DNA from: Agromyces luteolus
Lineage (GTDB): Bacteria > Actinomycetota > Actinomycetes > Actinomycetales > Microbacteriaceae
Length of the DNA: 64,000 nucleotides
Reading direction: 5' to 3'
Assembly: GCF_009729855.1 (NCBI RefSeq)
Contig: NZ_WODA01000025.1
Span: 1-64,000 of the forward strand
Of this stretch, positions 57,779 to 64,000 are shown in pieces. The notes beneath the pieces were generated by a model. It was given only the letters and a program-made list of their open reading frames with translations, had not been told where the DNA came from and did not search any database. Each line of letters starts with the position of its first letter. The first letter of the stretch is position 1. The translations under genes and the position numbers were made by a program.

Positions 57779-58680
57779 ACCGCTGGCGGTTCCTCGCGTC
57801 GCCCCGCTGGGCGGGCTACCTCGCGCTCGTCATCGTCTTCGCGATCGCCTGCTCGGCGCTCGGCACCTGGCAGCTCAACCGCCGCGCCGAGGCGCTCGCC
57901 GAGGTCGCCCGCATCGACGCGAACTACGACGCCGTCCCGGTGCCGCTCGCCGAGGCCCTCCCCGACCCGGACGGATTCGACATCGACCAGCGCTGGCAGG
58001 TGGTCTCCGCCACGGGCGAGTACCTCGCGTCGGAGGAGGTCGTCGTGCGCAACCGACCGTACGGAGGCAGCACGGGCTTCGAGGTCATCACGCCGTTCCG
58101 CCTCGCCGACGGCACGGTGTTCATGGTCGATCGCGGCTGGATCCCGCAGGACTCGGATGGCCGTCCGTCGGAGGTCGCGGCGCCGCCCGCCGGCGAGGTC
58201 GAGATCACGGCGCGCCTCAAGGCGGGCGAAGGGCGGATCGCCGGCCGCACGTCCTCGGGCGCGGAACTCGCGACGATCGACCTCGACGAGTTCGCCGAGC
58301 GCGTCGACGCGCCCGCCTATACGGGCGCCTACGGCATCCTGATCCAGTCGGGCGCCACCGCGAGCGAACCGCCCGTCGCGCTCCCCAGGCCGGTGCGCGA
58401 CGAGGGTCCGCACCTCTCCTACGCGCTGCAGTGGTTCGTGTTCGCGCTGCTCGCGTTCATCGCGCTGGCCTGGTTCGCGAACCAGGAGCGAAAGGTGCTC
58501 GAGACGGATGCCGCGGGCGACGGCGCGGCGGACGCACACGCCCCGCGCGGGGCCGCGCCATCCGCTCACGAGGGGAACCGGGCGGAAGCGCGCCGGCCGA
58601 CCACCCCACGGCGCCCGGCGAAGGCGGATCGCAACCGGTCGGACGCGGACGTCGAGGACGAGATCCTCGACCGCCGCTAG
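57775..58680 (+). CDS. SURF1-family cytochrome oxidase assembly protein
   Basis: A 301-residue membrane protein with helices at about 13-31 and 220-240 and an extracytoplasmic domain between them. LGTWQLNRRAE after helix 1, VVVRNRPYGGSTGFEVITPF and VDRGWIP, and YALQWFVFALLAF in helix 2 are SURF1 signatures. It should help insert heme a into the aa3 oxidase. The C-terminal 60 residues are a disordered basic tail. Its stop shares CTAG with the stop of the convergent DUF2200 gene. Confidence 0.94.
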   Translation: MNRWRFLASPRWAGYLALVIVFAIACSALGTWQLNRRAEALAEVARIDANYDAVPVPLAEALPDPDGFDIDQRWQVVSATGEYLASEEVVVRNRPYGGSTGFEVITPFRLADGTVFMVDRGWIPQDSDGRPSEVAAPPAGEVEITARLKAGEGRIAGRTSSGAELATIDLDEFAERVDAPAYTGAYGILIQSGATASEPPVALPRPVRDEGPHLSYALQWFVFALLAFIALAWFANQERKVLETDAAGDGAADAHAPRGAAPSAHEGNRAEARRPTTPRRPAKADRNRSDADVEDEILDRR

Positions 58681-59857: not shown

Positions 59858-59897
59858 GCGCCGCCGGGACGCCCGTCGTCGACGGACGCCGCGGCGC
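59858..59897. terminator. imperfect terminator hairpin between convergent genes
   Basis: GCGCCGC pairs with GCGGCGC outside and CCGTC with GACGG around a GTC loop inside. It fills the gap between the PCD-VOC gene and the convergent VOC gene. Confidence 0.55.
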
Positions 59898-59898
59898 C

Positions 59899-60276
59899 TC
59901 AGCGCTCCTCGATCAGGGTGAGCAGGTTGCCGTCGGGGTCCACGAGATGCCCGGCCCGCAACCCCCAGCTCTGCGGTCGCACCTCGTGGAGACGGGGGAA
60001 CCCGTGGTCGGCGATCGGCACGCCCGCGGCGACGATGCTCGCCGCCAGCTCGTCGACGTCGGCGACGCGGATGGTGCAGCGACTCGCGCTCGTCGCCGGG
60101 TCGAGGTCGGGCGCGGGGAAGAACTCGAGCTGGAGCCGACCGCGTCGCAGGATCATCCACCCGTCGTCGCGGAAGCGTCTCGCGAACCCGAAGCGCGCGT
60201 AGAACCCCTCGGTGGCATCGAGATCCCGCGACGGGAGGTTCGGCACGGTGCGGTCGGAGACGCCTGCGACGGACAT
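59899..60276 (-). CDS. bleomycin-resistance-like VOC protein
   Basis: A 125-residue VOC protein that resembles Ble/bleomycin-binding proteins: VPNLPSRDLDATEGFYARFGF at the start, LQLEFFPAPDLDP, and LVDPDGNLLTLIEE at the end. Such dimers sequester glycopeptide-like antibiotics. Actual resistance cannot be claimed from sequence. The ATG has CACAAT 6 nt upstream on the minus strand. It is the third VOC domain protein in the window. Confidence 0.9.
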   Translation of the reverse strand: MSVAGVSDRTVPNLPSRDLDATEGFYARFGFARRFRDDGWMILRRGRLQLEFFPAPDLDPATSASRCTIRVADVDELAASIVAAGVPIADHGFPRLHEVRPQSWGLRAGHLVDPDGNLLTLIEER

Positions 60277-60282
60277 TCACGC

Positions 60283-60288
60283 ATTGTG
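60283..60288 (-). promoter_or_regulatory. leaderless-type -10 element
   Basis: CACAAT on the minus strand ends 6 nt before the ATG at 60276; it is like the CAGAAT variants at 7295 and 43400. Confidence 0.45.
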
Positions 60289-60346
60289 CCGTGCGATCGT
60301 CGCCACGTCCAGTCGTCGTGGCGCGTCATGGGCACCGTGACCTCCC

Positions 60347-60910
60347 TCATCGGGCACGCTCCAGGATGGTGAGGAGCACGCCGTCGCCGTACGTCGTGGC
60401 CTCGGTGAGCTTCCACACCGTGCGGTCGGGCATCTCCGTCCAGAGCCTGCGCCCGTGGCCGAGGAGCACCGGGAACGACATGAGGTGGATCTCGTCGACC
60501 AGGTCGGCCTAGAGCAGGCCCTGCGCGAGCCGGATGCTCCCCGCGACCGAGATGTCCCCGTCGACGCTCCGCCTGAGCTGCGCCACCTCGTCGACGAGGT
60601 CGCCGGAGAGCACCGTCGTGTTGTTCCACTCCGGCTCGCTGAGCGTGCTCGACACGACGAACTTGGGCATGCCGTTGTACTTCTCGGCGAGCTCGCCGTC
60701 GTAGTGCGGCCACGCGGACGCGAACCCTTCGTAGGTCGTGCGCCCGAGCAGCAGCGCCGAGGATCCGAGTGCCTCGTCCTCCTTGAACTTCTCGCCGTCG
60801 TCGCCGCGGTCGAACTCGAAGCTCCAGTTCGGGTACTTGAAGTCCTCGCCGCCGGGTGCCTCCACGACGCCGTCGAGCGAGATGAACTCGGTGAGCACGA
60901 TGCGTCCCAT
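60347..60910 (-). pseudogene. dihydrofolate reductase family protein interrupted by an in-frame TAG
   Basis: A RibD C-terminal/DHFR-like reductase: MGRIVLTEFISLDGVVEAPGG, LLLGRTTYEGFASAWP and GDISVAGSIRLAQGLL in the first 133 codons. Codon 134 is TAG (60509-60511). The same frame then continues as ADLVDEIHLMSFPVLLGHGRRLW and ends with TGA at 60347, so the full frame has the usual 187 codons. One base change from GAG or CAG would explain it. The ATG has a strong GAGGAGG and lies 1 nt after the hydrolase stop. A sequencing error is the alternative. The truncated product would lack the last strands and helix. Confidence 0.9.
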
Positions 60911-60911
60911 G

Positions 60912-61730
60912 TCAGTCCTCCTCGATGAAGCCGCGCAGCGCCGGCGCGAGCACGTCGGCGGTCGTGCTGTGGTTCTCACCGGGGACCGGCATCAGGGTCG
61001 CGGTCGGCAGGTGCTCGGCGACCGCCTGTGCACCGGCGGCCAGGTGCGGCCAGGTCTCGGTGCCGTGCATGACCAGCACCGGGATGTCGATGCGATCCCA
61101 GAGGTTCTCGCGCAGCGGCCGACCGGACATCGTGTCGCCGACCTGACGGCCGTCGTAGGCGATGGTCGGGGCGATCGCCTCGAGCATCGGCCAGAACTCG
61201 GTCCCGCGCATTCCGTCGACCATCTCGCCCGGCATCCCGGCGGCCTCGGTCATGAAGAGGGCGACGGCATCGCCCGGGCGACCCTCGACGACCGCGGCGT
61301 CGAGCTGCTCGACGTAGTCGGCCGGCAGCGGCGCGCGGGAGCCGTTCGCGACGACGGGCGGTTCGAACAGTGCGAGCCGTGCGATCGGAACGCCGGCCTG
61401 CGCGGCGTTCAGGGCCAGGAGCGCCCCGGAGGACCATCCGAAGACGGTCACCGGACGTCCGTCCGCGACCTCCGCGATGATCGCGGCGAGGTCGTCGAAC
61501 TCGCGCTCGACCGCATAGGGGGCCGTGTCGCCGCTGTCGCCGCGCCCGCGCCGGTCGTAGTTCACGACGCGGAACCGATCGGCGAGCAGTTCGGCGGTCG
61601 CCGCGTTCTCGGGGGTCGTGGCGCGGTACGCGGTCGCGCCGTCGATGATGATGATCGGGTCGCCGTCGCCCCAGGCGGAGTACGCGATGGTGGTTCCGTC
61701 GGCGGACGTGACGGTCGTGTTCTCGGACAA
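60912..61730 (-). CDS. alpha/beta hydrolase
   Basis: A 272-residue alpha/beta hydrolase with the nucleophile in FGWSSGAL (about 97-102), Asp near 215 in PVLVMHGTET and histidine in PGENHST. NYDRRGRGDSGDT is the strand 4 region. The substrate is unknown. The TTG start has GAGAGG 9 nt upstream. It lies between an AraC regulator and the broken reductase and should be co-transcribed with both; similar hydrolase-reductase pairs next to AraC genes occur in actinobacteria. Confidence 0.9.
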   Translation of the reverse strand: MSENTTVTSADGTTIAYSAWGDGDPIIIIDGATAYRATTPENAATAELLADRFRVVNYDRRGRGDSGDTAPYAVEREFDDLAAIIAEVADGRPVTVFGWSSGALLALNAAQAGVPIARLALFEPPVVANGSRAPLPADYVEQLDAAVVEGRPGDAVALFMTEAAGMPGEMVDGMRGTEFWPMLEAIAPTIAYDGRQVGDTMSGRPLRENLWDRIDIPVLVMHGTETWPHLAAGAQAVAEHLPTATLMPVPGENHSTTADVLAPALRGFIEED

Positions 61731-61782
61731 GGTCGTGAGCCTCTCTCGTCGGTTCGCGGGTGATCACCGCGATGGCTTCACG

Positions 61783-62505
61783 CTAGGTCCGTCCCGGGGC
61801 CTCGGGCTTGTACAGAAGCGACAGTGGATCGGTCGTCGCGGTCGTCGGCCGGAGCTGCGTGGCCGTGCGCCCGATGAACCGCTGCAGGGCTCGCGCCAGG
61901 TGAGGTTGGTCGTAGTATCCGAGCCGGTGCACGACGTCGAGCGGCGCGACCCCCTCGCCGAGCAGCACGGCGGCCTCGCGCGCCCGTTCGATCTGGCGGA
62001 TGGCGCCCTGGGTGAGTCCCGTCGTCGCGGCCACGCGGCGCTGCACGGAGCGGGACCCGACCCTGGCGATCCCGCCCCAGACGACCTCGTCGACCAGCGG
62101 ATCCCGCACGAGCACGCCGGATCGGACGAGCCGTTCCACGAACTGCTCCGCGTTGTCGAAGTCCGGGATCTCCCATTCCTCGCCCCGCAGCACGAACGCT
62201 CGCCCGGTGACGTGCGGACTCTCCACGCCGCCGTCGACGAGCTCCCCGATCGGCAGGTGCGGCATCGACGCGCCGTGCGCGAACGTTATCCCCAACGAGC
62301 GCGAGTCGTCCGTGACCTCGGCGATCGAGGCGGATGTCTCGGGCCCGCGCACCGCGGCGTGGACGACTCCGCGGTCCTCCCAGAACACGAGCTCCCAGTT
62401 CGACGTCGCGATCGACGTCATCCGCTCGACGCCCGACGTGCGCCCCTGCCAGACCCGCGCGATGTACGGCGAGTCGGACGACCGGTGGCTGCTCTCGATC
62501 GGCAC
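61783..62505 (-). CDS. AraC-family transcriptional regulator
   Basis: A regulator of about 240 residues. Residues 1-150 form a cupin-like sensor (SDSPYIARVWQGRTS, WELVFWEDRG) of the DUF6597 type. Residues 160-235 are an AraC double helix-turn-helix with RSVQRRVAATTGLTQGAIRQ and RLGYYDQPHLARALQRFIG. The GTG at 62505 has GAGGGTGGTGAG directly upstream; ATG at 62562 is a longer alternative. It precedes the hydrolase and broken reductase genes and likely controls them. The ligand is unknown. Confidence 0.88.
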   Translation of the reverse strand: MPIESSHRSSDSPYIARVWQGRTSGVERMTSIATSNWELVFWEDRGVVHAAVRGPETSASIAEVTDDSRSLGITFAHGASMPHLPIGELVDGGVESPHVTGRAFVLRGEEWEIPDFDNAEQFVERLVRSGVLVRDPLVDEVVWGGIARVGSRSVQRRVAATTGLTQGAIRQIERAREAAVLLGEGVAPLDVVHRLGYYDQPHLARALQRFIGRTATQLRPTTATTDPLSLLYKPEAPGRT

Positions 62506-62677
62506 CTCACCACCCTCGCACGAACCCGCCGGATCCGAACGGTTCGTGGCGGCGGTCTTCATCGGCGAATCGCGTTCGTCGACCTGGATCGCCCGCATGG
62601 CCACAGGCGATCGATCGATCCAGCGCGAACTCACGCGTCTCCACCCACCCGCGCGATTCCCCGCCCCGATGGCTGGA

Positions 62678-62683
62678 TACGAT
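62678..62683 (+). promoter_or_regulatory. leaderless-type -10 element
   Basis: TACGAT, then TCCGAC, then the ATG at 62690. Confidence 0.55.
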
Positions 62684-62689
62684 TCCGAC

Positions 62690-63139
62690 ATGGAATCCGA
62701 GATCGTGCTCGAGGAGACCGTGGCGTCTGATCCGCGCGTGCGTGGTCTCGTGGCCGAGCAGGAGGCCGAGGTGATGGCCCGCTACCACGAGACCGATCCC
62801 GGACCGGGCGCGTCGCCCGACAGCCCCGCCGTCGTGGCCATGGCCGACGACCGTCCAGTGGGGTGCGTTCTGGTGTCGTTCCATCGGGACTTCGCGGAGA
62901 TCAAGCGGATGTACGTCGCTCCGGCTTCGCGCGGCCGCGGGCTCAGCCGGTTGCTCCTCGAGCGAGCGGAAGTGATCGCTGCGGCACGCGGCGCGTTCGT
63001 CCTGCGACTGGAGACCGGACTGGCTCAGCCTGAGGCGATGGCCCTGTACAGCCGATCGGGCTATTCACCCATCCCCTGCTACGGCTACTGGAAGGACGAC
63101 CCGGATGTGCGCTGCTACGAGAAGTCGTTGACTTCGTGA
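62690..63139 (+). CDS. GNAT-family N-acetyltransferase
   Basis: A 149-residue GNAT. The acetyl-CoA motif A is IKRMYVAPASRGRGLSRLLLERAE (about 69-92), with the R-G-x-G-L signature, and LYSRSGYSPIPCYGYW is the C-terminal part. Substrate unknown; GNATs of this length acylate amines, drugs or protein N-termini. The ATG has TACGAT 6 nt upstream. It is divergent from the AraC gene. Confidence 0.92.
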   Translation: MESEIVLEETVASDPRVRGLVAEQEAEVMARYHETDPGPGASPDSPAVVAMADDRPVGCVLVSFHRDFAEIKRMYVAPASRGRGLSRLLLERAEVIAAARGAFVLRLETGLAQPEAMALYSRSGYSPIPCYGYWKDDPDVRCYEKSLTS

Positions 63140-63229
63140 GGCCGGTCATGACCCGGCCGAGCGCCGGCCGAGCTGGCGACCCCCGCCAACGCCGTCGCGG
63201 CATCCGTCTGGCGTGCGCGGGCGACGCTA

Positions 63230-63279
63230 CGACGCCCCCCTCCGTGCGACGTTCGCCGGCGTGCGTTGGAGGGGCGTCG
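63230..63279. terminator. possible long hairpin after the GNAT gene
   Basis: CGACGCCCC with CTCC and GGAGGGGCGTCG form a near-perfect 12-bp stem (two bulged C) around a 24-nt loop. It may end the GNAT transcript. The 175-bp gap holds nothing else I recognise except the -10 at 63302. Confidence 0.4.
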
Positions 63280-63301
63280 AGATCAGTGCGCCCGGAAGCC
63301 A

Positions 63302-63307
63302 TAGTCT
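63302..63307 (+). promoter_or_regulatory. leaderless-type -10 element
   Basis: TAGTCT, then GCCGAG, then the ATG at 63314. Confidence 0.55.
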
Positions 63308-63313
63308 GCCGAG

Positions 63314-63814
63314 ATGGCGCCCCGCCCCGAATGGAGCTCTGTCAAGACCACCAGTGCGCTCGCGGTGGGCGTCGCGCTCCTCGTGATCGGCGTTTGGGTT
63401 GCCACGCTTCTCACCCCGAGCCCTCAGCCGATGACCGTTGATGCGGCAGTTGCAGAGGTGGCGGCTCGGCTGGACCGGATCGAAGGAACCCTCCCCGAAG
63501 GATCCGTGCTCGACCGTTCGGAGACGGTGAAAGTAGAAGCGTGTCCGCTTCAGGGGCGAGGGGAACAGGCACGGATGCTGCGAGTGTTCGACGTCGACCC
63601 TGAGTTCGATCGAGTGACCTGGGCGCGGACGCTGGCGGATGAGTTCGCCGAGTCGGACGGGTGGGCGGTTCGCACCAAGGCGCTTGAAACTCGGGAGAAC
63701 CTCGAGATTCGCGTCGTCGGCCGCGACCTGCTCGTGGTCGACATCATCGCCCGAGGCGACACAGCCCAGGCTCGCATCACCCTGCGCTCCCTCAGCGAAT
63801 GCAGTGCCAGCTGA
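63314..63814 (+). CDS. membrane-anchored hypothetical protein
   Basis: I do not recognise this 166-residue protein. A short cytoplasmic N-terminus precedes one hydrophobic helix (about 15-34, ALAVGVALLVIGVWVATLL). The rest would be outside the membrane: a mixed alpha/beta domain with cysteines at about 77 (VEACPLQG) and 163 (SECSAS) that could form a disulfide. It has fewer GC-rich wobble positions than its neighbours, which hints at a different origin. TAGTCT lies 6 nt before the ATG. The next gene starts 10 nt after its stop. Confidence 0.8.
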   Translation: MAPRPEWSSVKTTSALAVGVALLVIGVWVATLLTPSPQPMTVDAAVAEVAARLDRIEGTLPEGSVLDRSETVKVEACPLQGRGEQARMLRVFDVDPEFDRVTWARTLADEFAESDGWAVRTKALETRENLEIRVVGRDLLVVDIIARGDTAQARITLRSLSECSAS

Positions 63815-63823
63815 TCCCGCCTG

Positions 63824-64000
63824 ATGAGTCAGTCCCGATCCTTCAGTCTCAGATCCGCCCGCAAGCCGGTCGCTCCAACGGCGCGTCCGGCTGCCGCTGA
63901 CAGCGTCTTCGGTTCCCCCGGAGTGGGACCGTCCACTGATCAGTCGCTGGCCGATGATTTCGGCGCGAGTGCGGACAGCATGCTCGTCAGCGAACCGATC
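63824..64000 (+). CDS. start of an unrecognised gene (partial)
   Basis: An open frame of 59 codons from the ATG at 63824 runs off the window end without a stop. It begins 10 nt after the preceding stop, so it could be the second gene of an operon. The visible product is Ser/Ala/Pro-rich with no domain or signal peptide. There is no clear Shine-Dalgarno. Codon use is less GC-biased, as in the gene before it. Confidence 0.45.
   Translation, partial: MSQSRSFSLRSARKPVAPTARPAAADSVFGSPGVGPSTDQSLADDFGASADSMLVSEPI

Follow-up and report, generated by a model that had tools for sequence, protein, structure and literature searches.

The locus studied here raises the question of what a single amber codon inside a well-kept reductase frame of the soil actinobacterium Agromyces luteolus stands for. 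The initial annotation had left it open whether the lesion is young, the assembly wrong or the codon read through. The window, by which we mean the whole analysed stretch of 64,000 nucleotides, forms the start of contig 18 in a draft genome of 3.9 Mb and 26 contigs. Translation of positions 60910-60347 on its minus strand gave 133 residues, a TAG (60511-60509), another 53 residues and a TGA (60349-60347), which make up 187 codons. The coordinates and lengths in the initial annotation, with a single TAG at codon 134 and a normal stop after 187 codons, were therefore correct; the gene strand (minus) had not been given there. Using the reductase frame minus its first codon as the read-through query, we found a match to the Pfam family RibD_C (PF01872) at 82.6 bits, against a cut-off of 24.1. 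The part 5′ of the stop (60512-60910) alone scored 37.7 bits over profile positions 3-148, and the 53-codon part 3′ of it (60350-60508) scored 30.7 bits over positions 150-197, both above the cut-off, so that family-like sequence does continue past the TAG as had been claimed. Judged by their profile scores, the matches of the frame and of each part are beyond chance, and because the two parts match RibD_C separately, the frame can be treated as one gene with a single stop. The gene thus resembles other RibD_C or DHFR-like reductases in the profile match of both parts, but differs from them in being broken at codon 134. No NCBIfam model matched the reductase, either whole or in parts. Translation initiation also appears preserved, as the annotation had it, with a GAGGAGG motif six bases upstream of the reductase ATG and the stop codon of the upstream hydrolase gene (60914-60912) one base before this ATG.

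We then compared the gene with its relatives. Among the matches listed, a close orthologue was present in four of 59 other Agromyces genomes, at 73-82% identity and in each case with no internal stop, and the next matches listed for the genus had 53% identity or less. In public genomes we located 47 reductase loci, mostly from actinobacteria, and the 19 best of these were aligned with three genus regions to give a set of 22 orthologues, among them the four close ones from Agromyces, leaving out 28 lower loci. All 22 are at least 186 residues long and carry a sense codon at the column of codon 134 (Ala in 17, Glu in 5), and none shares the TAG at this column, so that the stop of the window gene lies where these orthologues have a sense codon. 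When 299 genomes of the family were drawn, only the genome of the window itself matched at 1e-60; as the draw evidently lacked the four genus genomes that hold the gene, this count speaks of rarity rather than absence. Among the matches listed for the same genome, two more reductases of the family, on contigs 19 (C19, 46% identity) and 16 (C16, 41% identity), were open.

The sequence after the stop bears on the age of the lesion. Between the window gene and its sister in G046, dN/dS was about 0.24 (0.108/0.451) in the part 5′ of the stop and 0.30 (0.173/0.568) in the part 3′ of it. In control pairs among seven open relatives, dN was higher 3′ of the stop point in 21 of 21 cases; since open relatives also diverge more in this part, the lower 3′ identity of the window gene to its relatives is no sign of decay. 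With seven outgroups, we assigned four replacements in 133 codons before the stop and two in 48 codons after it to the window lineage, compared with eight before and four after the stop point in the G046 lineage. Moreover, none of the 66 columns (54 + 12) that are invariant in the other 22 orthologues was violated in the window gene. We thus saw no excess of changes, and no relaxed constraint, after the stop in this comparison of 48 codons (the last five being left out), whose power is low enough for mild relaxation to escape it; a very young lesion would not be expected to show such relaxation in any case. Because the 3′ part is free of decay, the codon comparison points to a lesion that is very young or to an error of base calling or assembly: a mutation here must be very recent, and the same lack of decay fits an assembly error equally well. 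Of the 53 single-base changes that would create a stop in the reductase gene, 39 give TAG, so that an amber codon is also the expected kind of lesion.

To describe the effect of the stop on the protein, we used predicted structures. The read-through model had a mean pLDDT of 88.4 and showed a helix (residues 126-134) and, after it, three strands (140-146, 166-174 and 178-185). Its best solved match, which was also the best by sequence, was PDB 8jsv, a DHFR-like enzyme of Leptospira interrogans, to which the model aligned over its own length with a TM score of 0.87-0.90 and 35-36% identity. The 133-residue product expected with normal termination ends at the close of helix 126-134 and lacks the three C-terminal strands, so that in the predicted models an essential part of the fold is removed. 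Its own model, though partial, was still fairly confident, having a mean pLDDT of 83.4, with residues 16-21 below 50. Because it ends at the helix and misses these three strands, the 133-residue product is most likely inactive, as far as the models can tell.

We next asked whether UAG has another meaning in this genome. Both release factors were identified, RF1 at 462.6 bits (cut-off 423.25) and RF2 at 464 bits (cut-off 370). The suppressor tRNA that the initial annotation had suggested looking for was not among the 45 tRNA genes found in the genome, none of which has a CTA anticodon, as assigned with ARAGORN, which read 44 of the genes in fetched loci and the last one in the window. A tRNA-Lys with the anticodon TTT was missing from the same 45 genes, in which Lys is represented by CTT only. 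Relaxing the tRNA search to E values of up to 10 brought in a single extra place, which at 15.6 bits fell short of the cut-off (29), and a T-arm pattern allowing one mismatch at most occurred at 94 places (45 forward, 49 reverse). We examined 31 stretches around part of the T-arm places outside the 45 genes, one of them spanning the 15.6-bit place, and ARAGORN reported a single gene in them, a 92-base Glu (TTC) tRNA in L178 that the covariance search had not listed and that is probably a false call. Neither a Lys-UUU nor a CTA tRNA was found by the looser search, by the T-arm pattern or in the 31 stretches. The Lys-UUU gene may have dropped out at an assembly gap or may not exist in this genome, and the tRNA inventory may accordingly be incomplete, which slightly weakens the negative result for a CTA tRNA. 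A search of the genome with a PylS C-terminal model gave no match at E 0.001, the model being noisy (controls gave signals in 13 of 14 genomes, one above the cut-off); pylT was covered by the tRNA search only. With no CTA tRNA found, RF1 present and no PylS match, recoding of UAG by a suppressor tRNA, by loss of RF1 or by the pyrrolysine machinery is unsupported.

The use of TAG elsewhere led to the same picture. TAG ends ten of 45 window ORFs, the interrupted reductase included, in a set chosen roughly by GC3 that missed the AraC frame. In relatives, TAG stands at the same gene end in four of four cases for the gene that converges on DUF2200, which we take to be SURF1-like, and in three of four for DUF2200. 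The two release factors, the TAG-ended ORFs and the TAG codons at the ends of these neighbours together show that UAG is an ordinary terminator in this genome. The RNA 3′ of the amber codon is not unusually folded (z +0.69; 155 of 200 shuffles equal or exceed its stability). The gap at Lys-UUU leaves the odds on read-through unchanged, since the relatives and the use of UAG as a terminator also fail to support it. The initial annotation had held TAG to be the stop least prone to chance read-through in high-GC actinobacteria lacking a suppressor; in its passages on leakiness, PMC7918605 names TGA as the leaky stop, citing E. coli, Salmonella and Bacillus.

The initial annotation had placed the reductase in an intact AraC operon. 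Upstream of it on the minus strand we identified an alpha/beta hydrolase gene (60912-61730; Pfam Abhydrolase_6), which is a conserved neighbour, and a gene for an AraC-family regulator (61783-62691), which scored 33.2 bits with HTH_18, slightly below the cut-off of 33.6, and showed 64-81% identity to the regulators beside full-cassette orthologues. The N-terminal stretch of the AraC ORF is unmatched in relatives, homology starting at residue 27-65 depending on the relative, and for this reason the true start is probably internal to the listed ORF. All four of the other Agromyces genomes with a close orthologue share the order AraC - hydrolase - reductase. This order was found at 13 loci and in four genus regions, out of 47 public loci and four genus regions (the G013 region being also locus L091). 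Three loci (L093, L095 and L096) have the hydrolase and the reductase with no AraC match, and two (L120 and L123) have an AraC match ahead of a more distant reductase with no hydrolase. The reductase belongs to a cassette of AraC regulator, alpha/beta hydrolase and reductase whose recurrence among actinobacteria is patchy. The window holds the same three genes in the same order as this cassette; its reductase is interrupted, whereas that of the actinobacterial relatives examined is open.

A block of some 6.3 kb, which runs from 59862 to about 66134 of the contig, contains the cassette; the part of it inside the window is 59862-64000. This block is missing at the site in all four relatives fetched (G012, G031, G025 and G011, chosen for the most similar DUF2200 neighbour), which match on both sides of it. 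On the left flank three of them match up to 59861-59862, and G012 matches to 59064 with a short further piece to 59201; on the right, all four match again from 66135-66148, with no match in between. They carry different and shorter DNA at the site, about 0.3 to 1.6 kb by match ends, and no close reductase orthologue was found elsewhere in these four among the matches listed. The block itself contains a bleomycin-binding-protein-like glyoxalase, the reductase, the hydrolase, the AraC regulator, a GNAT acetyltransferase, two ORFs with no Pfam match, a metallo-beta-lactamase-fold protein and a YoeB remnant. The site is one of variable content, and together with the patchy spread of the cassette this suggests that the cassette was acquired. 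The frames of the hydrolase and of AraC bear out the claim of an intact operon. The cassette as a whole, however, is part of a block that the four compared relatives lack at this site, so that it is unremarkable if one of its genes is lost. Of the other products in the block, the glyoxalase-fold protein (59899-60276, minus strand) resembles the bleomycin-binding proteins Ble-MBL (130.7 bits) and BLMT (126.3 bits), below the NCBIfam cut-offs of 250 and 210. At the right edge, an ORF (L161:3742-4149, minus strand; contig about 65742-66149) has a C-terminal match to YoeB_toxin, a bacterial toxin-antitoxin family; its last 52 residues match positions 29-80 of the 80 in the profile, and its N-terminal part is unmatched.

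Taken together, these results are best read as an ordinary and very recent inactivation or an assembly slip, and not as a new reading of the genetic code; of the options first proposed, these two fit the measurements, and read-through is unsupported. We consider it likely that a real nonsense mutation, of very recent origin, has struck an accessory reductase gene that the cell can do without. A full-length reductase would have arrived with the AraC / alpha-beta hydrolase / reductase cassette in the variable block, a later change would have turned codon 134 into TAG, and RF1 would terminate translation there to give the 133-residue product. That the TAG base is real we infer from one genome, and an error in sequencing or assembly, or a variant carried by a minority of the culture, with the real gene open, is an unlikely yet serious alternative. 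It agrees with a 3′ part kept as well as in open relatives, and a single codon is concerned in a 26-contig draft, for which the estimated completeness (99.99%) and contamination (0.05%) are uninformative on base quality. However, single-base consensus errors are uncommon in most short-read drafts. In addition, genuine in-frame stops are described as widespread in the sections of Belinky et al. (2021, PMC7918605) that deal with them.

A tolerated or regulated read-through of UAG, giving some full-length reductase beside the 133-residue product, seems quite improbable to us. The preserved frame, ribosome site and 3′ part would be expected under it, and many bacterial in-frame stops are argued, in the parts of PMC7918605 that bear on selection, to have dN/dS below 1, short persistence and maybe lower expression. 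Nevertheless, no UAG-reading tRNA was found among the 45, RF1 is present, PylS is unmatched, no aligned orthologue shares the stop, and the RNA 3′ of it lacks an unusual fold. It is very doubtful that the amber codon acts as a short-lived dampener of expression, whereby a low but useful level of UAG read-through, mediated by a near-cognate tRNA or by a suppressor that an assembly gap conceals, would keep a new reductase at low dose under continuing 3′ constraint. A functional short form of 133 residues is hardly credible: the 5′ part bears no excess of replacements and gives a partial confident model, but the three C-terminal strands are missing and every aligned orthologue has at least 186 residues.

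A genuine nonsense mutation of this kind belongs to a known class. For bacterial genes under constraint, single in-frame stops are reported, in the relevant sections of Belinky et al. (2021, PMC7918605), to be widespread and mostly short-lived, on the order of polymorphisms; there, frequent read-through is favoured, yet the vast majority are assumed to have no functional recoding. The window gene is like those described in these sections in having a single in-frame stop in an otherwise constrained sequence, which fits very short persistence, and it adds one member to the published class. It differs from the large-scale set, as defined in the same source, in that the set requires the same stop in at least two species and the window case comes from one genome only. 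As a further accessory gene with a young in-frame stop, it has little significance in itself, and may at most serve as an example that a clean frame past a stop marks a recent or artefactual lesion and not a codon that is read through. If the stop were truly read, it would be a case of native low-level UAG read-through in a high-GC actinobacterium with RF1 present and no suppressor tRNA found.

A further reductase-like gene was noticed outside the block. In two relatives, a distant RibD_C-like gene (L159:4991-5530 and L160:6420-6959), with 29-33% identity in the 5′ part, lies between SURF1 and DUF2200, a spot that is empty in the window. Here the SURF1-like gene (plus strand) and the DUF2200 gene (minus strand) converge, and their stop codons overlap in the sequence CTAG at 58677-58680.
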